Assembly (NCBI RefSeq): GCF_013201625.1
Contig: NZ_CP053839.1
Span: forward strand, 248,001 to 312,000
Length of the DNA stretch: 64,000 bases
Source: Aliarcobacter lanthieri
Lineage (GTDB): Bacteria > Campylobacterota > Campylobacteria > Campylobacterales > Arcobacteraceae
Reading direction: 5' to 3'
The notes beneath the pieces are model-generated. The model searched no databases. It was given only the letters and a program-made list of their open reading frames with translations, and was not told the origin of the DNA. Position 1 is the stretch's first letter, and each line of letters starts with the position of its first letter. The position numbers were made by a program, and so were the translations under genes. Of the stretch, positions 13,244 to 36,187 are shown in pieces.

Positions 13244-13736
13244 CTTCCATTTTTTATCTCTATCTTTCCTAATAGTTCATATTCAAAAACTTTATCTCCA
13301 TATTTAAAAACAGCTTCATTATATAAAGGATTATTTTTACAATATTCTAAAAATTCATCTTTATTATTTTTCATAACTTGGGTTCCAAAGTTTGATACAA
13401 ACGCATCAATATCATAAATAGCTTTTGCTTTACTTTTTACTAAAAGTTGATTAGTTCCATCACTTTCTCCTAGTCTATGAGGTAAAACATAAATATCTTT
13501 ATTCATTTTAAGTGCATATTCTATACTTCTCATACTTCCTGATTTTAAATCTGCATAGGCAACTATCAAAATATCAGATAACGCAACTATGATTTCATTT
13601 CTAATAGCAAAATTTCTCGGTAATGATGGAGTATTTGGAGCAAATTGGCTTAAAACTAATCCTTGTTGTTCAATCTCCAAAATCATATTTTTATTTATTG
13701 CAGGATATCGAATATCAAGCCCTGTTCCACTAATCA
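13228..13736 (-). pseudogene. dprA: dprA 3' portion, separated from its start by a transposon
   Basis: This is the C-terminal two thirds of DprA, the RecA loader that protects incoming single strands during natural transformation. It holds SGTGLDIRYPAINKN, LPRNFAIRNEIIVALSD and GSMRSIEYALKMNKDIYVLP of the extended Rossmann fold, then a short C-terminal tail. The missing N-terminus lies at 36183-36452. Joining the two pieces with one AATCA copy gives a continuous 257-aa frame. An ATG arises at the transposon junction (13735-13737) but has no Shine-Dalgarno, so this fragment is probably not translated well. It is not a separate gene. Confidence 0.93.
13732..13736. repeat. Left target-site duplication AATCA
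   Basis: AATCA directly abuts the TGT end at 13737 and is repeated at 36183-36187 after the ACA end. Five-base duplications are characteristic of Tn7-like transposition. Confidence 0.93.
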
Positions 13737-13751
13737 TGTAATTTACAATAA
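13737..13751 (+). repeat. Left terminal inverted repeat of the Tn7-like element
   Basis: TGTAATTTACAATAA matches the inward-read right end (36168-36182) at 14 of 15 positions. The 5'-TGT is the expected terminal trinucleotide. Confidence 0.9.
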
Positions 13752-13805
13752 AAAAATTAAATGAATTTTCTATAAAAACGATATTTCGATTAATATTAGT
13801 ATAAT

Positions 13806-13872
13806 AATAAATTTAAATATGGTCAAGAATTAACTTAAATATATTTATAAATACAAAAATAAACTTAAATAC
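13806..13872 (+). repeat. Left-end TnsB-site array (three copies)
   Basis: Three 15-bp copies of a motif close to AATAAAYTTAAATAY lie at 13806-13820 (AATAAATTTAAATAT), 13828-13842 (AATTAACTTAAATAT) and 13858-13872 (AATAAACTTAAATAC). They all face inward and are spaced 22 and 30 bp apart. The right end carries two copies in mirror orientation. Position and multiplicity match TnsB-binding sites of Tn7-like ends. The last copy lies only 30 bp before the tnsA start, so TnsB binding could also repress the operon. Confidence 0.8.
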
Positions 13873-13901
13873 ATTTATATCTTGAATAATTTAAAAAAGA
13901 G

Positions 13902-14572
13902 ATGTATAATGTTTACATGAGTGTTAGAAAAATTAAAAAAAGTTATATTTCATCGACTGGATATTTTAAGAGTTTTAAGAACGATAAACAAATTGCGTAT
14001 GAATCAATTCTTGAAAGAGATTTCTATATGACATTGGAATTTAATAGTAATGTTCTGAGCTATGAAGAGCAACCTTTAAGAATTTATTATGAATATAAGG
14101 ATGGAATTCGTTATAGATATACTCCTGATTGTTTGGTGACTTACCAGAATAATATACAAAAATATTTTGAAGTTAAATATTTAAGTGATATAAAAAAGGA
14201 ACTGAACTAAAAGAAAAACTTGACTTTTTGATTATATATTTCCCTAAGTACGTACATATAGAGTTAGAAGTAGTAACTAATGAAAATATTTATAATGGAA
14301 CTTTAGATAATTTAAAATTTTTATATAATTTTGCATACCTTAAAGAAGATAGAGAAAAGTTTTTATTTATAGAAAATACACTTAAAAAACTAAATGATGT
14401 TATTACTGTTGAGCAATTATTAGAAAAATTAGCTAATAACAAAAGAGAACAGTTACTTTATCTACCTTATGTATGGAATTATATATTTAATAACACACAT
14501 CTTATAAAGCTTTATGATAAATTAACCAATAAGACTGTAATTAAAATTGGAAGTGATATATGGGAAAAATAA
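13902..14572 (+). CDS. tnsA: TnsA endonuclease, split by a -1 frame change
   Basis: TnsA cuts the 5' ends of the transposon and so allows cut-and-paste rather than copy-in movement. Frame one (13902-14210, possible later start 13917) contains the restriction-like core: AYESILERDF (Glu 34/38), YTPDCL (Asp 76) and YFEVKYL (Glu 90, Lys 92). It stops four codons after an A_AAA_AAG heptamer at 14192-14198. A -1 slip there continues as GTELKEKLDFLIIYFP and reads to 14572, giving about 223 aa, a normal TnsA length. The second part corresponds to the TnsC-contacting C-terminal domain and overlaps the tnsB start by 13 bp. Whether the frame change is programmed, a mutation or a sequencing error cannot be decided here. 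Confidence 0.82.
14192..14198 (+). promoter_or_regulatory. Candidate -1 ribosomal frameshift slippery heptamer in tnsA
   Basis: A_AAA_AAG is in the correct phase (codons atA-AAA-AAG of frame zero). It is the same heptamer used by E. coli dnaX. The -1 product continues directly into the tnsA 3' frame, while the zero frame ends at TAA 14208-14210. Downstream pairing is weak (AAAAG with CTTTT), so any stimulator is unclear. Confidence 0.5.
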
Positions 14573-16431
14573 ATTTAAAACCAGGAACAATCATTAATTA
14601 CATGGGAGAACAATGGAGAATATTAAAAACAATAAATATTAAAAATCTAGAAATTCAAAATTTATTGTCTAATGAAATAGTAACTATTTTATTAGATGAT
14701 TTACAATCAAATAATATAAATAATCATAAAAGTAGACATATTGATAGTTATTCTACTGAAGAATGGGCAGAGGCATTAAGGAGAGAAGAAATTATTAAGG
14801 ATTTGGTTTTTGTAAGTAGAACAAAGTATGATGTTGAATTAGTAGCAAAAGAGCATGGATATAGCTATGTTACTTTATATAATTGGATTAAACTTTATGA
14901 AAAAACTGGAGAAATTAGTTCTCTTGTACCAGCAACTTCAAAAAGGGGGAAAAAAGGAAATAGGTTAGATTCAAGAGTTAATGAAATTATTAGTGATATT
15001 ATAGAAAATATTTATTTAAATAAACAAAGATATAGTTTCAATAGAGTATATAATAAGATTTATCTTGCTTGCAAACATGAAAGTCTAAAAATTCCACACA
15101 GAAATACTATTAGATATAGAATATCACAAATAGAACCTAAAAAAGTAATAAAACGAAGATATGGTTATAAAAGAGCAAAAGAAGAATTTGATAATGCTGA
15201 TGGGAAATTTCCTGAAGGGAAGTTCCCTTTTGATTTTATTCAAATAGATCATACACCATTGGATATAATATTAGTTGATAGTGTATATCGTAAAGCACTA
15301 GGAAGACCAATTTTAACAATGGCAATAGATGTTTATTCTCGAATGATCGTTGGTATATATGTATCTTTTCTTGGTCCAGCTTTTTATAATGTATCTCAGT
15401 GTATGTTCAGTATTTTTAATAAAAAAGATAATTTATTAAAAAAATATGGTGTTGAAGGAGAGTGGAATGCATATGGAATTCCACGTATAATTGGTGTAGA
15501 TAATGGTCCCGATTTAGTCTGTGAGGATATGCAAAGAGTATGCGATGAATATGGAATATCTCTTCAAAAAAGACCTGTTGCAAGACCTCAATTTGGACCA
15601 CATATAGAAAGAGCATTTAAAACTCATAATGAAAGTATTCATAATCTTCCAGGAACTACATTTGGAGATATTGTCGAAAAAGGTGACTACAATTCTAATA
15701 AAAATGCAACATATACAATAGAAGAATTTACAACTTGGTTATTGCAATATATTGTAAATATTTATCATAAAAAGTATCATAGTGAAATATTTATGACTCC
15801 TGAACAAAAATATCTAGAAGGGGTTATGGGTAATGATGAAAATCCAGGAGTTGGCTTAGCTCCCGTTTTAGATAATATTGATAATGTAAGAATATCTTTA
15901 TTACCGACTGAAATTAGAACAATACAAAAAGATGGAATAACAATAGATGGGGTAACATATTATTCTGATGTTTTAAGACATTGGATAGGAATAAAAGATG
16001 ATAAAAATAAAAGGGTGAATCATAAAATAAAAAGAGACCCTTTAAATATACAGATGATTTATTTTTATGATCCAGAATTAAAAGAATATTTTGAGATACC
16101 ATACAGAAAACTTTCAGCACCAGCAATGACTTTATGGGATTTATATGCAGTAAAAAAATATTTGAAAAATCAAAAAATTAAGAATTATAATGAAGATGAT
16201 ATTTTCAAAGCTTATGAAAAATTGTATGAAATTGAATCTGAAATTGAGAAAAAACACAAAACATATGTTAAAGATCAAAGAAAAAGAACAGTAAAAATAA
16301 AGGAAACAGTTGCAGAAAAAAGAGAAAAACTTTATGATAATTATACTGAAGTAAATCCTGAACATTTTGATGGATTATTTGAAAATATTGAAATTTTTGA
16401 TGTAAAAACAGATAAGAAAAAAAATGGCTAG
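14560..16431 (+). CDS. tnsB: TnsB/TniA-family DDE transposase
   Basis: This 623-aa integrase-fold transposase binds the end repeats and performs 3'-end cleavage and strand transfer. Helix-turn-helix segments lie near residues 85-130 (VAKEHGYSYVTLYNWIKLY). The catalytic core has Asp 230 (FIQIDHTPLD), Asp 314 (GVDNGPDL) and Glu 350 (FGPHIERAFK). A Mu-type C-terminal beta domain follows, then a charged coiled tail likely to contact TnsC. The start lies inside the tnsA 3' end, and its last 8 bp overlap tnsC. All key residues are intact. Confidence 0.95.
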   Translation: MGKINLKPGTIINYMGEQWRILKTINIKNLEIQNLLSNEIVTILLDDLQSNNINNHKSRHIDSYSTEEWAEALRREEIIKDLVFVSRTKYDVELVAKEHGYSYVTLYNWIKLYEKTGEISSLVPATSKRGKKGNRLDSRVNEIISDIIENIYLNKQRYSFNRVYNKIYLACKHESLKIPHRNTIRYRISQIEPKKVIKRRYGYKRAKEEFDNADGKFPEGKFPFDFIQIDHTPLDIILVDSVYRKALGRPILTMAIDVYSRMIVGIYVSFLGPAFYNVSQCMFSIFNKKDNLLKKYGVEGEWNAYGIPRIIGVDNGPDLVCEDMQRVCDEYGISLQKRPVARPQFGPHIERAFKTHNESIHNLPGTTFGDIVEKGDYNSNKNATYTIEEFTTWLLQYIVNIYHKKYHSEIFMTPEQKYLEGVMGNDENPGVGLAPVLDNIDNVRISLLPTEIRTIQKDGITIDGVTYYSDVLRHWIGIKDDKNKRVNHKIKRDPLNIQMIYFYDPELKEYFEIPYRKLSAPAMTLWDLYAVKKYLKNQKIKNYNEDDIFKAYEKLYEIESEIEKKHKTYVKDQRKRTVKIKETVAEKREKLYDNYTEVNPEHFDGLFENIEIFDVKTDKKKNG

Positions 16432-17359
16432 AATAACTTTAACAATAGAAGCTGAATCTTTTTTGACAGAAAATGATAATGAAAGAATAAAATATATTAC
16501 AAAAAAAAGATGGATAAATTATCCAAAGGCACAGGATATATTCAATATTTTAGAAGATTTAAAGAAATATGAAAAAGATAAAAGTAGAATTTCAAGTATT
16601 TTATTAGTTGGTGCATCAACTAATGGTAAAACATCTCTATTAGAAGAATTTATTAACAAATATCCTCCATATGATAACTTTGTAAAAACTGATCAAAACA
16701 TTTCAGAGGAATTTTTAAATGATTATTATACTATGGGTATACCAATTCTTTATATAATTGCTCCTTCTGAACCTAGTGAAACAAGGTTATATAGCCAAAT
16801 ATTACATACGCTTAGTGCACCATTTAATGAAAGTATGTCCCTTTCTAAAAAGCAATACTTAGTAGAGCATTATTTAAAGGTACTCCATGTGGAAATGTTA
16901 ATTATAGATGAAATACATAATGTATTAAGTGGATCTGTTTCAAGACAAAAACAAATAATGAATGCAATTAAAAATTTAAGTAATACACTTAAAATTCCAA
17001 TTGTATTATCTGGGATAAAAGATGCATTAAGAACTATTAGTACAGATTCACAAATTATGAGTAGATTTAGGCCAGTTTTTTTACCTAAATGGAAAATGGA
17101 TAAGGAATATGTTTCTTTAATATCAACTTTTATTGCATCTTTTCCGTTAAAACAAGAGAATATTATAACTCAAGAGTTAGCTCAAGAAATTTTAAATATC
17201 TCACAAGGTTACATAGGTGATATGGCAGATTTATTAAAAGAATCAGCTATTTATGCAATAAAAACTAAAAGTGAAAGGATAACATTATCTGAAATAAAGA
17301 ACTGCAGATTTAGATCTATGAATCAATCAGAAAAAGATAGTAAATTATTTAGAGAATGA
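16424..17359 (+). CDS. tnsC: TnsC/TniB-family AAA+ ATPase
   Basis: This 311-aa AAA+ regulator forms ATP-dependent filaments on target DNA and activates the transposase at sites chosen by a TniQ protein. Walker A is GASTNGKT (63-70), Walker B is MLIIDEIHNV (Asp 162, Glu 163), and a sensor-like LSGIKDALR follows. It is short, like TniB of Tn5053/Tn6022-type elements rather than the 555-aa TnsC of Tn7. It overlaps tnsB and tniQ by a few bases, so the operon is translationally coupled. Confidence 0.95.
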   Translation: MARITLTIEAESFLTENDNERIKYITKKRWINYPKAQDIFNILEDLKKYEKDKSRISSILLVGASTNGKTSLLEEFINKYPPYDNFVKTDQNISEEFLNDYYTMGIPILYIIAPSEPSETRLYSQILHTLSAPFNESMSLSKKQYLVEHYLKVLHVEMLIIDEIHNVLSGSVSRQKQIMNAIKNLSNTLKIPIVLSGIKDALRTISTDSQIMSRFRPVFLPKWKMDKEYVSLISTFIASFPLKQENIITQELAQEILNISQGYIGDMADLLKESAIYAIKTKSERITLSEIKNCRFRSMNQSEKDSKLFRE

Positions 17360-18489
17360 TTACTAAAAATTTAAAACCAGGAAATTTAAAAAACAAACTA
17401 TTTTTAATTATTTTAAAACCTCTTGAAGATGAAAGTTTTTTATCATGGTTTGCAAGAACATCATATATTCATTATACACATCCTCAAACATTTTTAAATA
17501 CTCATTTCGGATTAGAAAATAGAGATATATTAAAACGTGATTTAGATGTTGCATTAAGTGATAAATTTATAAAAATATTTACTAAAAAAACAAAAAATAA
17601 AGTTGATATTTTATCTTTAACATTAAAAAAATATACAGGGTATTTATATGAAGATGAAATAATGAATGCTAATAATAAAGTTTTTATTTCAAATATGAAA
17701 TTTTGCCCAATATGTCTCGGAAAAGACAATATCCCTTATTTTAGACAATATTGGAAATTCATTTTTATTACTACTTGTGTTAAACACAATTGTTATTTAT
17801 ATGATGCATGCCCTAAATGTAATAGTAAAATCTCCATTATTAAAATGTATCAAGATTCAAAAAGTTATATATATTGTCATAAATGTGGACTTGATTTAAG
17901 AAAATCAAAAAAACAAACTATAAAAGCAAATGTAATCTATGGAATTAAAGCTCAAGAAAAATTAATGTATATTTTAAAAAAAGGATATATTCGATTTAAA
18001 GATAAATGGTTATACCCTTTCGTATTTTTTATAACCATAATACAAATCACAAAATTAATATTTTTAAGAAAACATACATATTTTATAAACCAAAATCCGT
18101 TATTTAAGATGTTAAAAGATAAGTTAGCTGAACATATTAAACTATCACCACCAGTTTTTAATCGATTAAATGTTCAAGAACTTTTTTCTTTGTTTGGACT
18201 CATAGTATATATTTTTGATAATTATCCTAATAATTTTAGAAATTTTATGAAGAAAAATCAATTAACTTATTGGGATATGGTAAAAGAAATCAAATATTTA
18301 TCATTTTGGTATGACAATTTAGTTAATGATGTATCTCCTAGATATTTAGCATTTGGAGATATGATTACAAATGAAGAGATTGAAAATGCTAAAAAATATT
18401 TAAAAAAAAATGATATGGATATTATAAAAGCAAATTTACAAAGATTATTTGGTACTTATAGTTACTTTTTTAAATTAACAAGTTTATAA
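17356..18489 (+). CDS. tniQ: TniQ/TnsD-family target-selection protein
   Basis: This 377-aa protein starts with the TniQ motif PLEDESFLSWFART, followed by a zinc-binding module: FCPICLGKD (Cys 117, 120), Cys 141/His 144, CPKC (152, 155) and YCHKCG (174, 177). TniQ proteins connect TnsC to the chosen target, and longer TnsD members bind a specific DNA site. The C-terminal 190 residues could provide such binding, so this is the first candidate for recognising the dprA sequence. No CRISPR effector accompanies it. It is the last gene of the tnsABC-tniQ operon. Confidence 0.92.
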   Translation: MITKNLKPGNLKNKLFLIILKPLEDESFLSWFARTSYIHYTHPQTFLNTHFGLENRDILKRDLDVALSDKFIKIFTKKTKNKVDILSLTLKKYTGYLYEDEIMNANNKVFISNMKFCPICLGKDNIPYFRQYWKFIFITTCVKHNCYLYDACPKCNSKISIIKMYQDSKSYIYCHKCGLDLRKSKKQTIKANVIYGIKAQEKLMYILKKGYIRFKDKWLYPFVFFITIIQITKLIFLRKHTYFINQNPLFKMLKDKLAEHIKLSPPVFNRLNVQELFSLFGLIVYIFDNYPNNFRNFMKKNQLTYWDMVKEIKYLSFWYDNLVNDVSPRYLAFGDMITNEEIENAKKYLKKNDMDIIKANLQRLFGTYSYFFKLTSL

Positions 18490-18554: not shown

Positions 18555-19139
18555 CTAAAACCCTTTTATTCCTAAAGCATTTAAAGTATCAATTCCTAAA
18601 TAACTTTCACTTTTTATATTATGTATTTTTTTAAAACTATCTATAGCTTTTCTTGTAGAATCTCCAATAATACCATCTATTGGACCATTATATAATCCTT
18701 CTAATAATAAAACGGTTTGAACCTGTCTTACTATTTTTTCTCTTTTATCTTTATCAACAGTATTATCACTTTTTATTTCTGTAGATCTATTAGTAGTAGT
18801 TTGCTTTTTAATAGAGGTAGTATTGTCAATCAATTTAGGTGCTTGATATGGTGTGTATGTCGATGAGTTCTTACTTGTACCATATGAATAATTTGAATAT
18901 CCCCCACTTGAAGAAGATCTATGAGAGCTATGACTTCTATGAGAACTATGGCTTCTATGAGCAGCTAAAATATCTGAAACATGTGAATTTAAAATAGATG
19001 CTTTTTCTGTATTATTGTCTAAAGAATTCAACATAAAATTTGCATTTGATATATCATCAGTTATATTTGATTGATAAGAGGCTTGTGCACTAAAAGATAT
19101 TCCAAGTAATCCAGCTAAAGCTTTTAAATTTTGTTTCAT
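18555..19139 (-). CDS. hxsA: His-Xaa-Ser repeat peptide HxsA with peptidoglycan-binding domain
   Basis: This 194-aa protein has three parts. The first is an N-terminal signal-like hydrophobic stretch (residues 1-22, ending in an Ala-rich SAQAS). The second is a tract of tandem His-Arg-Ser / His-Ser-Ser units at about 61-76, followed by Ser/Gly/Tyr-rich sequence. The third is a C-terminal PG_binding_1-type domain (about 130-192, VQTVLLLEGLYNGPIDG and GDSTRKAIDSFKKIH). This is the layout of HxsA, the presumed substrate of the radical-SAM enzymes encoded upstream. It overlaps hxsC by 4 bp. The modification and function of the mature product are unknown. It faces tniQ convergently. Confidence 0.88.
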   Translation of the reverse strand: MKQNLKALAGLLGISFSAQASYQSNITDDISNANFMLNSLDNNTEKASILNSHVSDILAAHRSHSSHRSHSSHRSSSSGGYSNYSYGTSKNSSTYTPYQAPKLIDNTTSIKKQTTTNRSTEIKSDNTVDKDKREKIVRQVQTVLLLEGLYNGPIDGIIGDSTRKAIDSFKKIHNIKSESYLGIDTLNALGIKGF

Positions 19140-20239
19140 ATTATATTTACCTTTTCTATATATTTATCTGTTGCAGAAGTAAAAAACCCACAACAATCAT
19201 TTCTTCTACTACAAAATTTACAATCTTCTAAATAATAATTCTTCCAATCTGAAATAGATTTTATTGAAAAATCTCTTATTTCTTCAGATAATAAACATAA
19301 TGGATAATTATATAAAAATATTTTAAAATTATATAATCTAGCTTTATAGATAGCTCTTTCTATATATTTATTTTGTTCTTTAACTTTTAAATATAATTTA
19401 TCATAATTTTTTCTTGCATAACCTATTGGTTCTATATTCATTATAGAAATACTATTAATCATTTTAAAAGTAGAAAAAATATAATCTATGATATTTTCTA
19501 AATATTTAATATTTAACTTATTTGGAATAATTCTAATTTCAATATTTTGTCCAAATTCTAATAAATTAATTATCCCTTTTGTTGTTTTATTAAAAGAATT
19601 TTTACTGCCAACTATTGTATCATGAATTTTTGAATTAAATCCATATAGTGGAATAGCCCAAACTAAATCTCTTAAAGATTCTTTACAAATTTTCTTTGTA
19701 AACTCATAATCTTCAAATGATTTTCCATTAGTTAAAATATGCAAAGAGTTAGTATTCCCACTACAATTTAATTTATTTAAAAATTCATGAAATACTTCCT
19801 TATTATAAGTTGGTTCTCCACCTGAAATTCCAATAAATTTATTTGTTTCAAAATTTATAATTGCCTTATATGCTTCATCAAATAAATATTCATCATTTTT
19901 TGTTTTAGGGGGTTGGCAACAAAATAAACATTTGCTGTTACATCTTTCAGTAACTAAGATGGTATTTTCATTTGAAAAATTTGTTAAATAAGTAGATATT
20001 TTTTTATTGTTTTGATGAAAAATCAATATATCTCCATCAACAACATTTTCTCTTAGATTATCACTCGAAAATAGTATTTTCTCATCATTAAATTGTATAC
20101 TATATTGATTATTTCCAATATAAGATATTTCTGATAAATTATCATATGTTTGTATAGATTTTTTATTAAAAATAAACATACCGTTAATTAAATTATCAGA
20201 TTTATAATTAAATGTATCTATTCTTATTGGTTTTTCCAC
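19136..20239 (-). CDS. hxsC: Radical SAM maturase HxsC
   Basis: This 367-aa radical SAM protein has its iron-sulfur motif C-x3-C-x2-C at Cys 100, 104 and 107 (RCNSKCLFCCQPP). FIGISGGEPTYNKE supplies the GGEP SAM-contact motif. A Cys-rich C-terminus (DCKFCSRRNDCCGFF) probably binds a further cluster. With HxsB and HxsD it forms the recognised His-Xaa-Ser maturation set. It is expected to act on the repeat tract of HxsA in the cytoplasm before export. It overlaps hxsB by 16 bp and hxsA by 4 bp. Confidence 0.9.
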   Translation of the reverse strand: MEKPIRIDTFNYKSDNLINGMFIFNKKSIQTYDNLSEISYIGNNQYSIQFNDEKILFSSDNLRENVVDGDILIFHQNNKKISTYLTNFSNENTILVTERCNSKCLFCCQPPKTKNDEYLFDEAYKAIINFETNKFIGISGGEPTYNKEVFHEFLNKLNCSGNTNSLHILTNGKSFEDYEFTKKICKESLRDLVWAIPLYGFNSKIHDTIVGSKNSFNKTTKGIINLLEFGQNIEIRIIPNKLNIKYLENIIDYIFSTFKMINSISIMNIEPIGYARKNYDKLYLKVKEQNKYIERAIYKARLYNFKIFLYNYPLCLLSEEIRDFSIKSISDWKNYYLEDCKFCSRRNDCCGFFTSATDKYIEKVNII

Positions 20240-21630
20240 TTTAAATATATCTCCATAATATCTTTTCTATTAATTAATGAGTCAAATATATAATCAAAAA
20301 TCATAGTATGTAATTTACAAAAAAAAGAAATTGATTTATCACCTATTATATCTCCTTGAGTTGATAAATGATGAAAAACATCTACGCCACAATATTCTTT
20401 ATAGCTACAATCTTCACATCCTGGCATTGTTTCAATAAATGAATTACTCAATACAGTAATATTATTCTTATCTAAAAAATTATATTCTTTAGTAGTAATA
20501 TCACCCAATTCTAGTTCTTTAAATTTAGTCATTTTCCATAACATTCTTGCTTCATCAGAACCAAATATTTTTCCATCATAGTTAAATACTAATGCTCCCA
20601 TCATATATGAAGATGGAGATTGCAAATCTAAATAATTATTTTCAAAAGGAGAAAATATTTTTGATAAATAAATAAGTAAATTTTCTTCAATAAAAACTTT
20701 TTCTTTATTAATATCAAAAATATATTCTAAACAGTTTTTATAAAACTCAAAAAAATCTTCAGCAGAATAAATTTTATTATCATTAAATGCATATCCTAAA
20801 AACGTCAAAGGTCTTATAGAAATAGTTGTAAATTCATTATCTAAATAACCTTGAATAAATTTTTTATAATCTTTTAAAGTTTCTTTTGTAACAGTTGAGA
20901 GTGCACTTATATTATTTTTACCTAATATTTTCCTTGATTCTTTTAATTTAGCAGTAAATCTATCATAACTGTTATAGTATCTAGAAGGCCTATTAGAATT
21001 ATGTATATCTTTGTTACCATCCAAAGAAGTTGATAAAAAAATATTGTTATTCTTACAAAAATTTAAAATTTCATCATTTATATTATTCAAAGTACTACAA
21101 ATTACAAATGAAATATTTTTATTAGTAATTACTTCTTTTATTTTTTTGACAAAAGTTTCTATAAAATTAAAATTTAATAATGGTTCACCACCTTGAAACT
21201 CAATTTTAAAGCTTTTATCTGAAACAAGATTTATAACTTTTATAATTTCATCTATATATTTAATATCTAAATCATAACCTTGTTTATTTATATTTACTCT
21301 ACTTACTTGACAATAATTACAATCTAAATCACATCTTAATGTAGGAATTATTAAAAATAAACTTGGTTTATTTAAATTAGAGTAAATTTTTGTAGATAAA
21401 TTTGTCAAATATATATTTAATTTTATTTTATAATCTTTTTCAATATAGATAAAATTATTTGCTTCAAGGTTATTCAATAGCTTTTCTTCTAAATTTTCAT
21501 ATTTATGATAAATTAAATTTTTTAAATCATCTCTTGAATTGATAATTCCAAAGCTACCTGTACTATTAGTTAAAATATATTTTTGAGAAGGTAATTGTCT
21601 AAAATTAAATGGAAAATATTTATAATTCAC
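20224..21630 (-). CDS. hxsB: Radical SAM maturase HxsB (SPASM type)
   Basis: This 468-aa radical SAM enzyme has Cys 100, 104 and 107 in TLRCDLDCNYCQVSR, GGEP-type KIEFQGGEPLLNFN, and a C-terminal SPASM-like set (Cys 405, 408, 414 and 438: MPGCEDCSYKEYCG...FFCKLH) for auxiliary clusters. SPASM proteins commonly modify ribosomal peptides. The first 90 residues may form a peptide-recognition region. It overlaps hxsD by 11 bp, so hxsD-B-C-A is one minus-strand transcript. The whole unit has transposon-like AT content and is cargo. Confidence 0.9.
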   Translation of the reverse strand: MNYKYFPFNFRQLPSQKYILTNSTGSFGIINSRDDLKNLIYHKYENLEEKLLNNLEANNFIYIEKDYKIKLNIYLTNLSTKIYSNLNKPSLFLIIPTLRCDLDCNYCQVSRVNINKQGYDLDIKYIDEIIKVINLVSDKSFKIEFQGGEPLLNFNFIETFVKKIKEVITNKNISFVICSTLNNINDEILNFCKNNNIFLSTSLDGNKDIHNSNRPSRYYNSYDRFTAKLKESRKILGKNNISALSTVTKETLKDYKKFIQGYLDNEFTTISIRPLTFLGYAFNDNKIYSAEDFFEFYKNCLEYIFDINKEKVFIEENLLIYLSKIFSPFENNYLDLQSPSSYMMGALVFNYDGKIFGSDEARMLWKMTKFKELELGDITTKEYNFLDKNNITVLSNSFIETMPGCEDCSYKEYCGVDVFHHLSTQGDIIGDKSISFFCKLHTMIFDYIFDSLINRKDIMEIYLKWKNQ

Positions 21631-25007: not shown

Positions 25008-25008
25008 T

Positions 25009-26184: not shown

Positions 26185-26188
26185 GTTT

Positions 26189-27738: not shown

Positions 27739-27768
27739 TATATATTTATTTTAATAGGATATTTTCTG

Positions 27769-28707
27769 TTAAGAGAGAAACTGAAAGTTTCTTCTTGGAT
27801 GTTTTGTTGATAAAAGTTTTCTTTGTTGCTTCATATTTACTTGAGTATAAATTTGAGTTGTAGAAATTGATGCATGACCTAGCATTCCTTGAATATATCT
27901 AATGTCAACGCCTTCTTCAAGAAGCATAGTTGCAAAACTGTGTCGAAACATATGTGGAGTTAAATGTTGTTGTATATTTGCTTTTGTTTGATATTTTTTT
28001 ATCATATTTGCAATAGAATATTCTGTAAATTTATTACTTAATCTATTGATAAAAAACCACTCTTTTTTAAGTATCTCATCTTTAAATAGTGATAAGTATT
28101 CTTTTAAGGCTATTTTAACTTCTTGATCACAAATTTGAATAGTTCTTTCTTTCCCACCTTTACCTAAAACTTTTATGTTTCCAGTACTTAAATTAATATC
28201 GTGATATTTGATATTACTTACTTCTGATACTCTAAGTCCTGTTGCAAATAATAGTTCCAATATGGCAATATCTCTTGTCAGTGCTTTATATGAATATTTT
28301 TCTATCTTGTTAAAGTCTGATTTTATTTTATAAACATATTTAAAAAGCTTTCTTATATTTTGAATTTCAATTATTTTTGGTAGTATTTTATGCTCTTTTA
28401 TTGAAATTCTCATTTTTCTAAATGGGCTTATAGTAATAATTTCTTCAAATTCAAGATGGGTAAAAAAAGCTTTTAATGTGGCTAATTTTCTTTTAATTGA
28501 TTTTGGTTTTAGTTCTAAAGTATATAAATGCTGAATATATTCTTTCAATATATCTTTATCAACTTCATTAATACACATAGATTGAATATCTTTAAATGTT
28601 TTAAATTGCTCTATATCCATAGTATAAGCAACAATTGTTTTTGGATTTAGATTTTTCTCAAATTTGCAATGAAATAAAAAATCTTGTAGTAACTTGTCTA
28701 TTTTCAT
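27769..28707 (-). CDS. Tyrosine recombinase (XerC/D-like)
   Basis: This 312-aa site-specific recombinase has an N-terminal SAM-like core-binding domain (LLQDFLFHCKFEKNLNPKTI). The catalytic domain contains LLFATGLRVSEVSNIKY (first Arg), a Lys in KVLGKGGKERTI, HMFRHSFAT (His-x-x-Arg), LGHASISTTQIYTQ (His and nucleophile Tyr). All catalytic residues are present. As transposon cargo it may be a passenger integrase of a nested element, or resolve dimers. AT-rich inverted repeat 28773-28803 upstream could be its site or simply a composition effect. Confidence 0.9.
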   Translation of the reverse strand: MKIDKLLQDFLFHCKFEKNLNPKTIVAYTMDIEQFKTFKDIQSMCINEVDKDILKEYIQHLYTLELKPKSIKRKLATLKAFFTHLEFEEIITISPFRKMRISIKEHKILPKIIEIQNIRKLFKYVYKIKSDFNKIEKYSYKALTRDIAILELLFATGLRVSEVSNIKYHDINLSTGNIKVLGKGGKERTIQICDQEVKIALKEYLSLFKDEILKKEWFFINRLSNKFTEYSIANMIKKYQTKANIQQHLTPHMFRHSFATMLLEEGVDIRYIQGMLGHASISTTQIYTQVNMKQQRKLLSTKHPRRNFQFLS

Positions 28708-29022
28708 ATTTTCTCCTAAAATTGGTTTAGGTATTATCTTATAATGAATATAAGGGAATAGAGTATTCTTTACTAATTAAAATAATATATTTAATTTAAT
28801 TAGAATATTTTAGTAAGAAACTATATAAAGATTTTAATCTAAAAGTTATATTTATTCTTAAATAGATATTAAACAATGTCAAACTTTTTATTTATATAAG
28901 TTCAAAACTTTATCTTTTAATAAGGAACTTTTTCATATTATTAGACTAATAAGCTCTATGTTCACTCTGAATAGGGATTGCCTCTCTCGTTTTATCGATG
29001 ATGATTCCTTGAGTACTGCTTT

Positions 29023-29040
29023 TTCTGATATATATCAGAA
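29023..29040. repeat. Perfect 18-bp palindrome
   Basis: TTCTGATATATATCAGAA is fully self-complementary. It may be a dimeric regulator operator or a small hairpin. There is no adjacent gene to assign it to. Confidence 0.5.
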
Positions 29041-29381
29041 TGTTTTTTACTTTTCTTCTTTTATGTTATATTTTTTAGAAAATAAATTATTAATCTGAAT
29101 ACTACTTGAAAAATTTTAACATTTGACTATTAATAAAATGTGTTAAGAGTCTTTTAATATTTAAAGATATAAATAATACACTATGTGTCGTTAATTATTA
29201 AAGAATAGCGTATCTTAACGAGTTAAAATAATATTTAATTTAAGTTTAAATCTATAATTTTGTTAAAAATTCATCTTTAAGTATCTAAAAATAATCATTG
29301 TTAGATTTAAGCTAATTGCGAACACTATTAAGATTATATTAAGTATTGGGAAGTTTTACAATAATTTTCTAAACTATTTTT

Positions 29382-29549
29382 TTATTCTAATTTTAAAATT
29401 TGATATTCTTTTCCATTTCTTTCTAGAAATTGACTGGAACTACCTCTAAGTATTTCTTAAATTGTTTATCGTCATTACAATTTAATTTCTCCCATAATTT
29501 CTTTAATTGATCTATATTATTTTGCAGTAATTGTATATCTTGATGGCAT
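29382..29549 (-). pseudogene. Frame-shifted small gene remnant
   Basis: Downstream of AGGAATAAAA and an ATG at 29549, protein-like sequence is spread over three frames. One frame reads HQDIQLLQNNIDQLKKLW, and after a further shift another reads ILRGSSSQFLERNGKEYQ and ends at a stop at 29382-29384. Amphipathic helix character and codon use suggest a real but broken gene of about 55 codons. I do not recognise the family. It lies just past the 3' end of the HEPN/Toprim-type gene, which is also on the minus strand. Confidence 0.35.
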
Positions 29550-29582
29550 TTTTATTCCTATAAAATTTTAACTGTGATAAAA

Positions 29583-30863
29583 TTATTTTCTCTCAGCTAT
29601 ACTAACACAATTTTTTATAATACAATTAATCACTGATTGTAACTTATCAACAGAATAAGATCCATTAAGAATTGTTTTTCTTGTTTGTTTAAAAAATTCT
29701 TTTTGATAAGATTCTTTATACTCTAGAACACCATGATATGTTTTTATTTTTTCTTTATAATTAGTCCAAATTATTTTTGGAGAAGGATAGTTTTTGACAT
29801 TTAAATCAAGATAACATTCAATTGCTGCAGCACGACCATTAATATTTGCGGAAAATAATCCTTCTGGACCTTGAGTTTGAAAATTATTAAACTCTTCTAA
29901 GTCAGGTAATACAATAACTTGCATATTTGAAGGTATATTTAAAGAATTAACTTTATTAAATGCTTCAATACCTTCTGCATCATTATCAAATACAAATAAT
30001 ATGTTATTTAGAGTATCAATTTTTATAAGTCCTTCTGCAAATTTTACTAAACTTCCAGTACCCGAAAAAGGGTGTCTTTCTGTTACGTCAATAAAGTAAA
30101 AAAAATCTTCTATTTCTGGTTTTAATATTGAAAAAGCATGTTTTAGAATATGTACATCTGAACTTCCTTCTGTAGCAATTAAAAAACGATGTTCACGTTT
30201 TACATTTGCCTTAAAATCTTCTTCTTTTGCCCATCCTGCTTCTACTAAAGGACCATATTGCCATATAACTTTTTCAGATAAGTTTGAAGAACATTCAGCA
30301 AGTATACGTAGAAGAGAATAAGGATGAAGAAAAGAAATTAGACCCTCAAAGTAATTTAACTCTGAATATGCATCTTTTTCAATAAAATCTTCATATGGTA
30401 AACATTTTATAGTTGGGATATATTCAAATCTTTTTCTAATTTTTTTTATATCATTATAATCATAAGATGTATATGTATTATCTAAATTTTTAATTGGATA
30501 CTTCTTAATAAATAAACAAAATTCATCAAAGCTCATAACATTTAATTTTCGACCTTCTTCTTCAAGAAACTGGTATTCTTCTTTCCAATTTTTTACTAAG
30601 TCATTATATTCTTTTTTTATAGATTTTAAAGTAAACCCTAAAAGTTCTAATCTAGGGACAATAGTTTTTAGTTCTATAGAAAATGCCATTTCTATAGAAG
30701 TTAGATTTTGATTTTGTTCTTTATCGTAGTCGTAATTAATATAATCTGATTTTACAGGTATTCTGTTTTCTTCTTGGAAAATTACACCATGGTCTATGCC
30801 CATTGAATTTTTACTCCAACTAACTGATAATTCACCTATGTTTAAAGATATTTCTGTTCCCAT
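29583..30863 (-). CDS. HEPN/Toprim-type probable defence protein
   Basis: This 426-aa protein has an N-terminal domain (about 1-215) with the MGTEISLNIGELSVSWSKN start typical of the HEPN/Toprim N-terminal family. A Toprim-like nuclease fold follows: the Glu motif LIATEGSSDVHIL (Glu 232) and the acidic LFVFDNDAEG (Asp 293, 295, Glu 297). Proteins of this type occur in bacterial conflict loci and are presumed metal-dependent nucleases. It is divergent from gajA with 85 bp between them, so a shared promoter region is likely. Whether it works with Gabija or independently is unknown. Confidence 0.75.
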   Translation of the reverse strand: MGTEISLNIGELSVSWSKNSMGIDHGVIFQEENRIPVKSDYINYDYDKEQNQNLTSIEMAFSIELKTIVPRLELLGFTLKSIKKEYNDLVKNWKEEYQFLEEEGRKLNVMSFDEFCLFIKKYPIKNLDNTYTSYDYNDIKKIRKRFEYIPTIKCLPYEDFIEKDAYSELNYFEGLISFLHPYSLLRILAECSSNLSEKVIWQYGPLVEAGWAKEEDFKANVKREHRFLIATEGSSDVHILKHAFSILKPEIEDFFYFIDVTERHPFSGTGSLVKFAEGLIKIDTLNNILFVFDNDAEGIEAFNKVNSLNIPSNMQVIVLPDLEEFNNFQTQGPEGLFSANINGRAAAIECYLDLNVKNYPSPKIIWTNYKEKIKTYHGVLEYKESYQKEFFKQTRKTILNGSYSVDKLQSVINCIIKNCVSIAERK

Positions 30864-30948
30864 ACTTATTCTTTTTATGAATTTAAAATAATTGCTCTAC
30901 TTAATTATATTATAATATAATACAACATAATTTATAAGTAGGTCTATT

Positions 30949-33006
30949 ATGTATATATCAAAAGTTAAAATAACTAATTTTAGGAATTTCAAAAGTGAAG
31001 AAATATTATTCAATGATGGAATTAATGTCATTATTGGACAAAATAATGCAGGGAAATCAAACTTAATTAAAGCATTATCTTTAGTATTAGATGGTGAAAG
31101 AATTAAACGACTTGATATAGATGATTTTAATAAATCATTGACTTTTAATGATTTAAAAGATAATCCACCAAAGATAACCATTTCTGTATCAATTAGTAAG
31201 GGGAAAGATGAAACCCCAGATGACCTTCCCACAATTTCAAATTGGTTAACAAAGCTTGATGCTTCATATGAATCGATGTTAACATATGAGTTTTTTTTAC
31301 CTGAAAAAAAACATGAAGAATATATAAGTACAATAACTTCATTACCTGAAGGAGATGATAGAACTGAAAAAACATGGAAAATTGTAAAAAATGATTTTTT
31401 AAGATTCTATACATATAAAATCTGGGGTGGAGATTTGATAAATCAAGCTCAAGCAGATTCTGAATCATTAAAAAAAATAGATTTCCAATTTCTAGATGCA
31501 ATTAGAGATGTAGAAAGGGATATGTTAACAGGAAGAAATACACTATTAAGAGAAGTTTTTGATTTTTTTATGGACTATGAAATAAAAATAGATGAAACAA
31601 AATCACCTGAAACAAAGTTTTCCGAAATAAAAGATAGACAAATGGAATTTTCAGAGAAGGCTGATATCCTAATACAAGAGCTTACTGCTAGAATTGCATC
31701 AGGGAAAGAAGAAATTCTATCTTATGCAAAAAATACTGGAGCTTCTTTTAATAAAGCAAACCCTAACTTTGAGGGTACTTTTTCAGAAACAGAAATGTAT
31801 TCTGTATTAAAATTAATTGTAGAATATGAATCAGGTATTAAGATACCTGCAACACACAATGGATTGGGTTACAATAATCTAATATTTATGTCTTTACTTC
31901 TTGCTAAAATGCAAGTGAATGCAGATGTAAACTATCTAGATAATAATGCAAAAGTTTTTACTACATTAGTAATTGAAGAACCTGAAGCACATCTTCATCC
32001 TGCTATGCAATATAAATTTTTAAAGTTTCTAAATGAGAATAGAAAAGAAAAAAAAGTTCGTCAAGTATTTGTTTCAACACATTCAACACATATTACTTCT
32101 GCTGTTTCTTTAGATGAAATAATTTGTTTACATAATGAAAATGGCATAAGTAAAATTGCTTATCCAAAAAAAGTATTTTCAGACAGAGAGGAAAAAAGTA
32201 AAAAGTACATACAAAGGTTTCTTGATTCAACAAAGTCAGATATGCTTTTTGCACAAAAGGTTTTATTTGTGGAAGGTATTGCAGAACAACTTTTAATGTC
32301 AATTTTTGCAAATTATCTAGATAAATCATTAGAAGATAACCATGTTGCTATAATCAATGTAGGAGGCAGATTTTTTGATCATTTCTTATATTTATTTGAT
32401 TCAACAAAACCTTTTACCATCAACAAAAAAATAGTTTGTTTAACAGATAGAGATCCTGAAAGAAAAGAGAAGCCTAATGGAAAATTTAAAAAGTGTTATC
32501 CCTTTGAATATAATATTGATTTAGCTAATTATGAATATAGAACAAATGTACATGCTGGTAAATATCTTGAAGACGAACATCCTAATATTACTTTTTTTAG
32601 TCAACCTATTGAATATGGAAAAACATTTGAATATGAACTTTTACTTGCAAATCCAACATTAAAAATTTTACTAACGGACTCAATTAGTAATAAAGAAGAA
32701 TTAGAAGATTTAATGGACTTATATAATGAAAGTGGCAAAACATATCAAGATTTACTAAGTAGATTAAGTACAAGTGCTGAGAACCAAAGAATTAAAGATG
32801 GTCTTAATTGTAGTACATTAAATGAAGAAGAAAAGAAAAAGTCCATAATTGCTTCAAGATATCTAAACTCTGTTGGAAAAGGTGAAAATGCACTTGAACT
32901 TTCATATGTTTTGCAAGAGAATTTAAATAAAAAAGGAACAGCTGAGTACAAAGATTTCATTGTACCAAGTTATATTAAAGAAGCGATAGATAAATTATGT
33001 CAGTAA
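30949..33006 (+). CDS. gajA: Gabija protein GajA (OLD-like ATPase/Toprim endonuclease)
   Basis: This 685-aa OLD-family protein has an ABC-type ATPase with Walker A IIGQNNAGKSNLIKAL (30-37), Walker B TLVIEEPEAHLHP (about 337-349) and FVSTHSTHIT. A Toprim domain follows with VLFVEGIAEQLLM (Glu near 441) and VCLTDRDPE (near 495-503). GajA nicks DNA and is kept off by nucleotides until phage depletes them. The adjacent overlapping UvrD-like helicase gene is the diagnostic partner. It is longer than the studied B. cereus GajA (578 aa), but motif order is unchanged. Confidence 0.9.
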   Translation: MYISKVKITNFRNFKSEEILFNDGINVIIGQNNAGKSNLIKALSLVLDGERIKRLDIDDFNKSLTFNDLKDNPPKITISVSISKGKDETPDDLPTISNWLTKLDASYESMLTYEFFLPEKKHEEYISTITSLPEGDDRTEKTWKIVKNDFLRFYTYKIWGGDLINQAQADSESLKKIDFQFLDAIRDVERDMLTGRNTLLREVFDFFMDYEIKIDETKSPETKFSEIKDRQMEFSEKADILIQELTARIASGKEEILSYAKNTGASFNKANPNFEGTFSETEMYSVLKLIVEYESGIKIPATHNGLGYNNLIFMSLLLAKMQVNADVNYLDNNAKVFTTLVIEEPEAHLHPAMQYKFLKFLNENRKEKKVRQVFVSTHSTHITSAVSLDEIICLHNENGISKIAYPKKVFSDREEKSKKYIQRFLDSTKSDMLFAQKVLFVEGIAEQLLMSIFANYLDKSLEDNHVAIINVGGRFFDHFLYLFDSTKPFTINKKIVCLTDRDPERKEKPNGKFKKCYPFEYNIDLANYEYRTNVHAGKYLEDEHPNITFFSQPIEYGKTFEYELLLANPTLKILLTDSISNKEELEDLMDLYNESGKTYQDLLSRLSTSAENQRIKDGLNCSTLNEEEKKKSIIASRYLNSVGKGENALELSYVLQENLNKKGTAEYKDFIVPSYIKEAIDKLCQ

Positions 33007-34694
33007 TAACAATAAATTCTAGTGATATTATTCCTGATATAGAAAGTCATTTTAAAATACTTGCTGGTCCAGGAGCAGGGAAAACATACTGGTTAACAAA
33101 TCATATAAAAAATGTACTTCATAATTCAGAGAAACTATATAAAACGAAAAAAATAGCTTGTATCACTTATACAAATACCGCAACAGAAACTATTCTAAAA
33201 AGGTTAGGAACATCAATAGATAGAGTAGAGGTTCAAACAATTCATAGTTTTTTATATAAAAATATTGTTAAACCTTATTTATCGACAATTGCACAGGAAT
33301 ACAACTTCAATGTAAAAGAAATGAATGGGCATGATGACATTGTGTTATCTAATTACAGCTTTATGAATGAATGGAAAATAAGAACAGGCCAGCGAAGAAT
33401 CAGAGATGATAATGCAGTAATTCAAGCATTTAAAAATCTTAAATGGAAATTTGATAATGGTGAGTTAAAAGTAAAAACAGATTATCCTTTTAGAGCAGAT
33501 GGATATATAATTAAAAACGATTCTTATATAGAATATAAAAAAATGACTTGGGAAAAAGGTTTACTTCATCACGATGATGTTCTTTTTTTTAGTTATGAGA
33601 TTTTGAAAAGTAAGCCTTTTTTAGGAAAACTTTTAGTTTCAAAATTTCCCTATATTTTTATTGATGAATTTCAGGATAGCAACCCTATTCAGGTTAAGAT
33701 ATTCAAAATATTAGGAAATGAAGAATCAACAATAGGTATTATAGGAGATATTTCTCAGTCTATTTATAAGTTTCAAGGTGCTGATCCCAGTCAATTTAGA
33801 CTATTTGATTTAAGAAATATAAAAGAGTATTGTCTTTTAGAGAATCATAGAAGCTGTAATGAAATTATAGATGTATTAAATATGGTTAGATGTGATATTT
33901 CTCAAATTAAAGTAAGAAATATTTCTAATGAGAAACCTACAATATTTATTGGAAATATGGTTAATGCTTTGCAGAAAGCAAAAGAAATATGTTCAGGAGA
34001 GCTAGTTCATACACTTTCAAGAAATAATATTACTTCAAATGCTATGAAAGCTGAAATAAATGGTTCGTGCCTAAATAATAAGCTATTAGAAGAGATTATA
34101 ATAATTGATAAACCTTCTTCGAGCAATAAATATAGAAGTAAACTAATCTCTTCTTGTATTAAAACTGTATCATATGCAAGAGAAAAAAAATTTGGAGATG
34201 CTATTAAAGAACTAGAAAAATTTTTTAGCTTTAAAGATAAAGAAAAAGGTAAGAGAAAATCTTTATGTTATATTTCATTTCTCTTAAAACATTATGAAGT
34301 ATATAAAGATTTAAATCTTATATGTTTTACGCAATTTGTAAGAGATAATTTAGTTAATGATTTATCAAATTTTAGGGAAGGAACAGCTAAAAGTTTCTAT
34401 GAAACACACACTTTTGAAGAATTAAGCCTATGTGTATCTATTCCTGAAGATAAAAGTTTGCATAAGACTATACATAAGTCAAAAGGTGATGAATTTGATA
34501 ATGTATTATTAGTGTTAAGGGAAGAGAATGATTTAGAGTTTCTTCTCAACCCCAATTTAAGTGATGATGAAGAACATAGAATTAATTATGTTGCAATTAG
34601 TAGAGCAAAAAATAATTTATTTATTTCTATTCCTGCAGTAAGTAGTGATAAAAGAAATATTTTAGAACAGTATTTTAATATTGAAGAATTATAA
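32997..34694 (+). CDS. gajB: Gabija protein GajB (UvrD-like helicase)
   Basis: This 565-aa superfamily 1A helicase contains LAGPGAGKTYWLT (Walker A, 24-30), ITYTNTATETIL (motif Ia), FIDEFQDSNP (motif II), IIGDISQSIYKFQG (motif III), HKSKGDEFDNVLLVL (motif V) and YVAISRAKNNLFI (motif VI). In Gabija, GajB associates with the GajA tetramer and is proposed to sense or process DNA ends. Its ATG overlaps the gajA stop by 10 bp, so expression is coupled. All helicase motifs are intact. Confidence 0.9.
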   Translation: MSVITINSSDIIPDIESHFKILAGPGAGKTYWLTNHIKNVLHNSEKLYKTKKIACITYTNTATETILKRLGTSIDRVEVQTIHSFLYKNIVKPYLSTIAQEYNFNVKEMNGHDDIVLSNYSFMNEWKIRTGQRRIRDDNAVIQAFKNLKWKFDNGELKVKTDYPFRADGYIIKNDSYIEYKKMTWEKGLLHHDDVLFFSYEILKSKPFLGKLLVSKFPYIFIDEFQDSNPIQVKIFKILGNEESTIGIIGDISQSIYKFQGADPSQFRLFDLRNIKEYCLLENHRSCNEIIDVLNMVRCDISQIKVRNISNEKPTIFIGNMVNALQKAKEICSGELVHTLSRNNITSNAMKAEINGSCLNNKLLEEIIIIDKPSSSNKYRSKLISSCIKTVSYAREKKFGDAIKELEKFFSFKDKEKGKRKSLCYISFLLKHYEVYKDLNLICFTQFVRDNLVNDLSNFREGTAKSFYETHTFEELSLCVSIPEDKSLHKTIHKSKGDEFDNVLLVLREENDLEFLLNPNLSDDEEHRINYVAISRAKNNLFISIPAVSSDKRNILEQYFNIEEL

Positions 34695-34831
34695 GGGTTC
34701 AGAAGATTTAAAGATAATTAAAATAAGATATTTTTTAGTGTGATATGGGGCATTCCATATAGGTTAATCATACTTTTTTTAAGAAATTAGTAACTAAGAG
34801 ACAATGTAAAGATTTTAATGTAAATGATAGT

Positions 34832-36097
34832 TTATATAAAATACCTAACTGGTTCATTATTAAGTTTCATCATTCTACGCATATTTCTAGTTGTTCGTTT
34901 TCGTTGATTTATTTTTAGATATTTATTATCAAATTGTTTGTTGTAATATGCAACTAAATTAAAAAGTGCTATTTCTATAATTTCTTTTATATTTAGATTT
35001 TCATATTTTTTAGTATTAATTTTTGGAAAAGCCTCGTATTTATTTATTAATTGAAAATTTAAACGATACTTTTTACAAAATAAATTAATATTTATTTTTT
35101 CTATTGACATGTAAATATAATTAAAAATATTTTTTAAAAATTTATCAATATTAAAAATATCTTTATGAAAGTTCTCAAATAACCAAATATGATTTAATTC
35201 ATTTTTATCAAAAAAAATAAGTAAATAATTTTTAAATTTAAAATTAAATGCTAAATAGTAAAAACAATAGTTATAAATAGTTGATTTATCATAATTATTA
35301 AAATTATCAACATATTCATGTAGATATTTAATTGAACTTAAATATGTAATTTTACACCCCAAATTAGTTAAATAAGTATTTAATGATAGATATATAGTAT
35401 TAAAATATGATTTATATAAGAAATAGGTTTCATCTGATTTATAATAAATTCTATTAGGATCTATATTAATATCAATTAAAGCTGAGAATTCCTTTTTGAT
35501 TTTTTGATTTTTTATATAGTCAAAATATATTACATCATCGAATGGTCCTTTTAAGTTTGTATAAGGTGAAAATGATTCAAGAACATAAGTGTCTTTTTTT
35601 AATTTATCAATAATTTTTGTGAAACTTCCATCAATTTCTATATTACCAAATGTAGGGAAGAAACTCCTAATTTTATTTAAGTTTTGACTCTTTGTAGTAG
35701 AAAGTTGAAAAAAATGATAATAGAATATGTTCTCAATACGCTTGTCAAAAAGTATTCTTGCTACAAATAATGCAGAAATACTAGAACATTGTCTCACATT
35801 ATCTATTACCATATTAGATGACTCAAATGAAGAATTATAAAAAAGGTGATTTATATTTCCACTAAGTAGAGCTTTTTCTAGAGTTTTATTTTTTAAATAA
35901 AAGTGTTTAATAATAAATTTGCAAGGTATAATTAATCTACAATTGCTATAAATAAAAACATATGCCCATTCATCTTTATCAAGATCTTTAATTTTATAAA
36001 TTTCATTTTCTAATAAGATATTTTTTATTTGGTATAGTTTTTGTTTATATTTAGAGATTATATTAAAAGTTTTTGTTTCATTATGAATGACTTCCAT
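34832..36097 (-). CDS. Unknown 421-aa protein at the right transposon end
   Basis: The coding sequence starts 85 bp inside the right end and points inward. The protein is rich in Tyr, Asn, Phe and Lys, with no signal peptide and no clear membrane helix. Its very basic C-terminus (NQRKRTTRNMRRMMK) could bind nucleic acid. No motif of TnsE, TniQ or Cas proteins was found, and I do not recognise a family. Its promoter must lie within the right-end repeats, so TnsB could regulate it. Being next to an end, away from other cargo, is compatible with a transposition accessory or target factor, but it may equally be cargo such as a single-gene defence. Confidence 0.7.
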   Translation of the reverse strand: MEVIHNETKTFNIISKYKQKLYQIKNILLENEIYKIKDLDKDEWAYVFIYSNCRLIIPCKFIIKHFYLKNKTLEKALLSGNINHLFYNSSFESSNMVIDNVRQCSSISALFVARILFDKRIENIFYYHFFQLSTTKSQNLNKIRSFFPTFGNIEIDGSFTKIIDKLKKDTYVLESFSPYTNLKGPFDDVIYFDYIKNQKIKKEFSALIDINIDPNRIYYKSDETYFLYKSYFNTIYLSLNTYLTNLGCKITYLSSIKYLHEYVDNFNNYDKSTIYNYCFYYLAFNFKFKNYLLIFFDKNELNHIWLFENFHKDIFNIDKFLKNIFNYIYMSIEKININLFCKKYRLNFQLINKYEAFPKINTKKYENLNIKEIIEIALFNLVAYYNKQFDNKYLKINQRKRTTRNMRRMMKLNNEPVRYFI

Positions 36098-36134
36098 ATG
36101 ATATTTTTCTTTTTTATATTTTGATTACACTAGT

Positions 36135-36169
36135 ATATTTAAATTTATTGTTGTATATTTAAGTTTATT
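36135..36169 (-). repeat. Right-end TnsB-site pair
   Basis: Two 15-bp copies, read inward on the minus strand as AATAAACTTAAATAT (36155-36169) and AATAAATTTAAATAT (36135-36149), lie 20 bp apart. They mirror the three left-end copies. An unequal number of sites at the two ends is typical of Tn7-like elements and sets end polarity. Confidence 0.8.
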
Positions 36170-36182
36170 ATTGTAAATGACA
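36168..36182 (-). repeat. Right terminal inverted repeat of the Tn7-like element
   Basis: Read inward on the minus strand this is TGTCATTTACAATAA, one mismatch from the left end at 13737-13751. On the plus strand it finishes with the expected ACA. Confidence 0.9.
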
Positions 36183-36187
36183 AATCA
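36183..36187. repeat. Right target-site duplication AATCA
   Basis: This direct copy of 13732-13736 immediately follows the ACA terminus. It belongs to dprA codons TGATT on the minus strand. Confidence 0.93.

Follow-up and report, generated by a model that had tools for sequence, protein, structure and literature searches.

A Tn7-like transposon inserted within dprA

We analyzed a 64,000-nucleotide (nt) stretch of the Aliarcobacter lanthieri genome, here called the window, in which a Tn7-like transposon lies within dprA, the gene for a protein that loads RecA on incoming single strands. The element spans positions 13737 to 36182 (22,446 bp). Its 15-nt terminal repeats, TGTAATTTACAATAA at 13737 and TGTCATTTACAATAA (the reverse complement at 36182), are identical at 14 of 15 positions, and a 5-bp target duplication, AATCA, stands on both flanks (13732 to 13736 and 36183 to 36187). 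Searching the 64 kb for the 18-mer AATAATAAACTTAAATAT with at most two mismatches gave six matches against 0.38 expected by chance, a count reached by no shuffle. Five of the six lie in mirrored arrays at the ends, at 13803, 13825, and 13855 on the plus strand in the left (tnsA-side) end (13737 to 13901) and at 36135 and 36155 on the minus strand in the right (tnsE-side) end (36098 to 36182). TGT...ACA ends, several TnsB sites, and a 5-bp duplication are features expected of a Tn7-like element. The host genome (G000 in our comparisons) is a single 2.28-Mb contig and holds one copy.

The interrupted gene is read on the minus strand, with its 5′ part (codons 1 to ∼90) at 36183 to 36452 and its 3′ part (codons ∼90 to 257, an open frame) at 13228 to 13736. 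In silico excision that keeps one AATCA restores an uninterrupted DprA frame of 257 codons, and the rejoined gene aligns without a gap at the junction with the intact dprA genes of the two closest genomes, G030 (81% amino acid identity) and G012 (75%), which provide the empty site that the initial annotation of this DNA had proposed looking for. The claims of that annotation regarding the Tn7-like identity, exact ends, AATCA duplication, mirrored arrays, and restoration of dprA all held.

Four core genes follow the left end on the plus strand: tnsA (13902 to 14572), frameshifted so that 102 amino acids (aa) are followed by 114 aa in another frame; tnsB (14560 to 16431), a DDE transposase of 623 aa; tnsC (16424 to 17359), a TniB family AAA+ ATPase of 311 aa; and tniQ (17356 to 18489), 377 aa. 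Pfam recognizes TnsA-N, Mu-transpos_C/rve in TnsB, TniB (4.2e-60), and TniQ (9.1e-20), and TnsB, TnsC, and TniQ are encoded together, as in other Tn7-like elements. The window element is a genuine Tn7-like transposon with exact boundaries. The word "intact" in the initial annotation is right for the ends and for tnsB, tnsC, and tniQ; it does not fit tnsA, which the annotation's own list of intact motifs had not named, or the shortened, diverged protein encoded at the right end.

This right-end gene (34832 to 36097, minus strand, 421 aa) previously had no annotation and is here assigned to a TnsE-like family from the predicted fold of its full-length relatives. Its protein has no match in Pfam or PADLOC, and neither phmmer nor a profile found a significant match among Protein Data Bank sequences. 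Almost all of the other elements that we compared have a homologue located at their right end or close to it; the full-length relatives (550 to 600 aa) match Pfam TnsE_C (PF18623) weakly, at 0.0029, which is below the cutoff. For the member from genome G403, the seven solved structures that best match the predicted structure (mean predicted local distance difference test [pLDDT] score, 67.7) are all of the TnsE C-terminal domain and include 5d17, 9d5l, and 5d16 (probability, 1.00; TM-score by target, ∼0.6 [0.62 for 5d17]). Beyond residue ∼180, the AlphaFold model of the window's own protein is of poor quality (mean pLDDT, 54), and the fold assignment therefore rests on the full-length relatives. 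The short form is common to the window element and the elements of G007 and G035.

Insertion sites in dprA and the lineage of TniQ

Searches with TnsB and DprA covered the host's family (104 genomes) and were then extended to 397 genomes of the phylum and to three further families. Within the 104 genomes, the five with the closest TnsB (100, 77, 60, 50, and 50%) are the same five in which dprA is split by this family. Across the host family and the three further families, 13 members of the TnsB/TniQ clade are inserted in dprA, all in one orientation, with the tnsA end toward the 3′ part of the gene. Eight lie at one identical nucleotide near codon 57 (site A; G007, G013, G085, G453, G494, G533, G539, and G758). 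The other five lie near codon 91 (site B), where the elements of G035, G340, G360, and G331 share one nucleotide and the window element is 2 bp upstream. Between the two sites lies the 30-nt segment in which dprA is most conserved (codons 66 to 75). Matching duplications were read on both sides of 11 of the 13 elements (AATCA, ACAAC, TTGGA, TTAGA, AGTAT, GCCAC, TTTTT, GCAAA, TTCTT, TATGG, and GAAAC, of which TTTTT is ambiguous because of a T run and TATGG was read across contigs); for G533 and G758, the reading covers just the left side. Recurrent insertion of 13 elements at two fixed positions in one gene is the site-specific behavior typical of Tn7-like transposons, and targeting of dprA is well supported by these comparisons. 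A scan of genome contigs yielded only one relative, in Sulfurospirillum sp. UBA2217, on the same contig as the G331 element.

Two apparent split genes, in G023 and G095, were ruled out because they reflect a contig overlap and an N gap. We also left G063 out of the counts, as the element that splits its dprA is unrelated and has a tyrosine recombinase. That element (∼22.7 kb, in C8:80000-112000) interrupts the gene near codon 134 and encodes the recombinase (432 aa) beside proteins of 193 and 950 aa, a convergence on dprA. More distant Tn7-like elements were also observed: G007 has a second one outside dprA (C1:1406500-1445900; TnsB 43% identical), and those of G043, G080, and G173 show independent decay of tnsA, tnsB, or tniQ through frameshifts or stop codons.

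Members of the same clade are also found outside dprA: four elements at argJ (G403b, G652, G566, and G555), one in flhF (G403a), one elsewhere (G375), and one unplaced (G496). In all four argJ elements, the argJ stop codon lies within the duplication and argJ is on the tnsE side, which suggests recognition on the side of the tnsE end.

The insertion site follows the TniQ tree and not the TnsB tree. For TniQ, the site B elements form one clade (support, 100/99), as do the argJ elements (100/100). For TnsB, the G007 element, at site A, groups with two site B elements, those of G035 and the window (100/99). By approximately unbiased (AU) tests, this grouping is rejected for TniQ (P = 0.006), and the unity of the site B elements is rejected for TnsB (P = 0.0004). 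The genes that we found common to the compared elements are tnsA, tnsB, tnsC, tniQ, and the tnsE-like gene; since the site tracks TniQ and not TnsB within this set, TniQ is the leading candidate for choosing the site. As a whole, the data are best explained by a Campylobacterota Tn7-like family that homes to dprA by means of TniQ, with the TniQ lineage choosing the site, a reading to which we give a probability of about 0.88.

TnsF, a partner of TniQ in some related elements, is an inactive tyrosine recombinase. Another protein, such as the TnsE-like protein, a TnsF-like tyrosine recombinase, or the product of a cargo gene, might pick dprA in place of TniQ, given that Tn6022 uses TnsF with TniQ for comM (PMC10293859) and that the window element encodes a tyrosine recombinase (27769 to 28707). 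However, the latter is XerC/XerD-like and has no homologue among the other elements compared, and the G007 element, with the same short TnsE-like form and TnsB affinity as those of the window and G035, is nevertheless at site A, with only its TniQ grouping apart. We consider a selector other than TniQ very unlikely.

Selection could also produce the pattern with no targeting at all, if the elements inserted widely and those in dprA survived because loss of transformation prevents them from being recombined out. The underlying idea of chromosomal curing is established (Croucher et al. 2016, PMC4774983; also PMC12637031), and the unrelated element near codon 134 in G063 likewise splits dprA. Selection for a knockout alone would, however, scatter insertions over 770 bp, whereas the observed positions are nucleotide identical in 8/8 elements at site A and 4/5 at site B, are constant in orientation, and are divided by TniQ clade; the argJ clade is equally exact. 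Selection as the sole cause therefore seems extremely improbable, and it may act in addition to targeting.

Some observations weigh against homing to dprA by TniQ. The members at argJ, in flhF, and elsewhere show that the clade has targets besides dprA. The argJ elements suggest recognition on the tnsE-end side, yet the conserved codons 66 to 75 lie 3′ of site A but 5′ of site B. Finally, the window copy has a frameshifted tnsA and for that reason may be immobile by cut-and-paste transposition.

Mobility was directly seen only in a relative: G403 contains two 100%-identical copies of 17,627 bp, located in flhF and at argJ and flanked by different duplications. The argJ copy adjoins the right end of an older element, and this tandem insertion suggests weak target immunity. 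For the window copy, the recent movement proposed in the initial annotation is plausible, with a perfect duplication and both halves of dprA open. Repeated entry is also indicated by divergence estimates. Between G453, G533, and G539, synonymous divergence (dS) is 0.53 to 0.58 for tnsB and >3 (saturated) for the interrupted native dprA, meaning that one element lineage entered the same dprA nucleotide of three diverged species independently.

The tnsA frameshift, second dprA genes, and other cargo

A second, intact dprA is carried as cargo by 5 of the 13 elements (G340, G453, G533, G539, and G758). It lies between both ends in G340, G453, and G539 and on another contig in G758, where it directly follows tnsE, and in G533, where it is linked to the element by similarity only. 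The window element carries none. In G340 and G758, the cargo copy is not sister to the native dprA of the same host; the copies in G453, G533, and G539 together make up a single clade. The cargo dprA genes probably come from three sources and at least from two. Those of the latter three genomes are full length, with a dS of 0.42 to 0.60, like that of tnsB, a nonsynonymous divergence (dN) of ∼0.05, and a dN/dS ratio of ∼0.1, values that point to purifying selection and joint travel with tnsB.

These genes could be ordinary horizontally acquired cargo unrelated to the target, as the family carries varied cargo and dprA is commonly found. Such an origin is unlikely, though less so than the alternatives to targeting weighed above, because it would have to account for dprA in 5 of 13 elements, for its origin from two or more sources (probably three), for its position directly downstream of tnsE in the unrelated elements of G340 and G758, and for the constraint and tnsB-like divergence among the others. 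A functional link between the cargo dprA and the target is likely; the cargo copy would then rescue the lost function, and members that carry it may keep their hosts transformable.

In the window copy, tnsA has a −1 frameshift relative to its homologues at a run of six A's (14192 to 14197, within A AAA AAG at 14192 to 14198), while the gene is open in a single frame in every other dprA/argJ clade member that we examined. The element thus retains the TnsA N-terminal domain in a shifted frame and does not encode the uninterrupted endonuclease typical of Tn7-like transposons; TnsA is absent from some Tn7-like branches. The downstream part (114 aa) is fully open and still 65% identical to the TnsA of G035. 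Either the lesion is recent, then, or the protein may still be produced.

The frameshift may be no real loss, reflecting either a homopolymer sequencing error or bypass by −1 slippage. Its position in an A6 run, the frame open throughout downstream, and the classic slippery heptamer agree with this, and we see it as nearly an even chance. We did not accept A AAA AAG as a sign of programmed frameshifting: shortening a longer A run by one base produces the motif automatically, so it is no independent evidence, and we looked for a strong stem-loop downstream and found none.

A switch to replicative transposition, with the XerC/XerD-like recombinase acting as a resolvase, appears quite improbable. 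Loss of tnsA together with tnsR is a known pattern (Benler et al. 2021, PMC8649781), and the window element combines a tnsA frameshift with a complete-looking tyrosine recombinase. The still similar downstream part of TnsA speaks against such a switch, however, as do the lack of conservation of the recombinase in the family and the repeats near it (28600 to 29700), among which we found no convincing resolution site.

Defense genes make up part of the remaining cargo, as the initial annotation had proposed. PADLOC and Pfam identify an N6-methylase with a large N-terminal extension and a type I-like specificity subunit (22140 to 26088, plus strand) and Gabija gajA and gajB (30949 to 34694, plus strand). 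By eye, the EIDCG...EDKEPK motif of the methylase extension resembles a PD-(D/E)XK nuclease, with no hidden Markov model match. Divergent from gajA is a candidate defense gene, unmatched in PADLOC, for a protein with a HEPN/Toprim N-terminal domain (29583 to 30863, minus strand; PF18871, 4.7e-58). Defense cargo varies among elements, with a different Gabija system in G007 and RADAR-like genes plus DndC in G539. No Cas families were found among the scanned element proteins and no Rfam match at 13000 to 37000; the window element does not have the internal cas genes and CRISPR array of a CRISPR-associated transposon.

Next to tniQ, on the minus strand, is a complete cassette, hxsD-hxsB-hxsC-hxsA (18555 to 21895; TIGR03976 to TIGR03979 at or above the cutoff), for a His-Xaa-Ser radical S-adenosylmethionine (SAM) peptide, a ribosomally synthesized and posttranslationally modified peptide (RiPP); we found no established function for such cassettes in the literature searched. 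The region from 26189 to 28707 encodes a putative membrane protein (plus strand), a SAM methyltransferase (minus strand), and the tyrosine recombinase (27769 to 28707, minus strand), whose XerC/XerD-like matches are below the NCBIfam equivalog cutoffs. We ruled out TnsF as its identity, since it is XerC/XerD-like, 9 kb from tniQ, and not conserved in the family. After it come ∼875 bp without annotated genes.

Proposed mechanism and relation to known systems

We propose that TnsB would pair the TGT...ACA ends through their repeated sites, with TnsA and TnsB cutting, and that TnsC would link this transposase complex to a TniQ of 370 to 380 aa. TniQ would recognize the conserved dprA codons and place the element at one of the two fixed nucleotides in one orientation. 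The choice between the two would belong to the TniQ lineage, a sister lineage using the argJ stop codon, and the TnsE-like protein at the far end would probably give a second, less site-specific pathway. Disruption of dprA would block processing of imported single strands, so that transformation would be lost or strongly reduced, which in turn would make it harder for recombination with DNA of the empty site to remove the element; a replacement dprA is carried instead by some relatives. Direct DNA binding by TniQ, transformation loss, benefit to the element, and TnsE activity are what we infer from the comparisons. The window host encodes a ComEC family protein, and no intact dprA was found elsewhere in its genome; with no cargo dprA in the element, it has no intact copy. 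A framework for the loss of transformation versus being recombined out exists (PMC4774983), as does a precedent in comM (PMC11472951, PMC10293859).

The family may follow two strategies: most members would abolish transformation and so be protected from being recombined out, and the others, entering at the same nucleotides, would bring a partly foreign substitute dprA that accompanies tnsE and keeps the host transformable as the native gene is replaced, with retargeting within dprA by exchange of tniQ alone. We advance this idea tentatively, at somewhat less than even odds. Beyond what the initial annotation had covered, the analysis adds dprA as a recurrent specific target, the agreement of site with TniQ, the TnsE-like right-end gene, and the replacement dprA genes of relatives. 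Homing to dprA at two exact sites, retargeting that follows tniQ alone, and replacement of the target gene by cargo are new points: Tn7-like homing to dprA was not found in the literature searched, and dprA is absent from PMC10293859 and PMC8649781. Independent, exact dprA insertions in several genera make the idea of a conflict between element and transformation directly testable, and elements that only break dprA provide an internal control for those that break and replace it. Retargeting by tniQ alone (site A, site B, and argJ) amounts to a natural swap experiment on how TniQ reads DNA without TnsF, TnsD, or CRISPR, which is useful for engineering insertion systems.

Canonical Tn7 resembles the dprA family in TnsABC, the 5-bp duplication, TGT...ACA ends with TnsB arrays, an orientation fixed relative to a conserved coding region, and the TnsE C-terminal fold. 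It inserts downstream of glmS, using TnsD and TnsE pathways, whereas the dprA family inserts inside a gene, has a ∼377-aa TniQ instead of the longer TnsD, and carries tnsE at the other end and not in the operon. The window element is not at attTn7, and the only Pfam match above the cutoff in its 377-aa protein is TniQ. The Campylobacterota argJ elements have the same TnsB and TniQ clades, the same ends, and (in G403) a TnsE-like right-end gene, but their TniQ subclade puts them exactly at the stop codon of argJ, where ArgJ keeps its full sequence. Tsy elements, tyrosine recombinase transposons in comM (PMC10293859), show unrelated machinery converging on a transformation gene, as the G063 element does in dprA, and differ in having no TnsB, TnsC, or TniQ.

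Tn6022/AbaR-type Tn7-like transposons in comM (PMC10293859) likewise combine a TnsABC-TniQ operon with a TnsE gene that lies at the far end and is read from the other strand, home to conserved codons of a transformation gene that they interrupt, and carry defense or resistance cargo. In Tn6022-like elements, Faure et al. 2023 (PMC10293859) described remote homologues of TnsE encoded well away from the core genes and on the other strand, and the window element has this arrangement. It differs in its insertion in dprA instead of comM and in lacking a TnsF gene in an operon with tniQ, the next gene being hxsA on the other strand. The dprA family as a whole has no TnsF adjacent to tniQ, uses two alternative sites according to TniQ lineage, and includes members with a replacement target gene. 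To comM, the well-studied transformation gene for Tn7-like homing, dprA adds a second.

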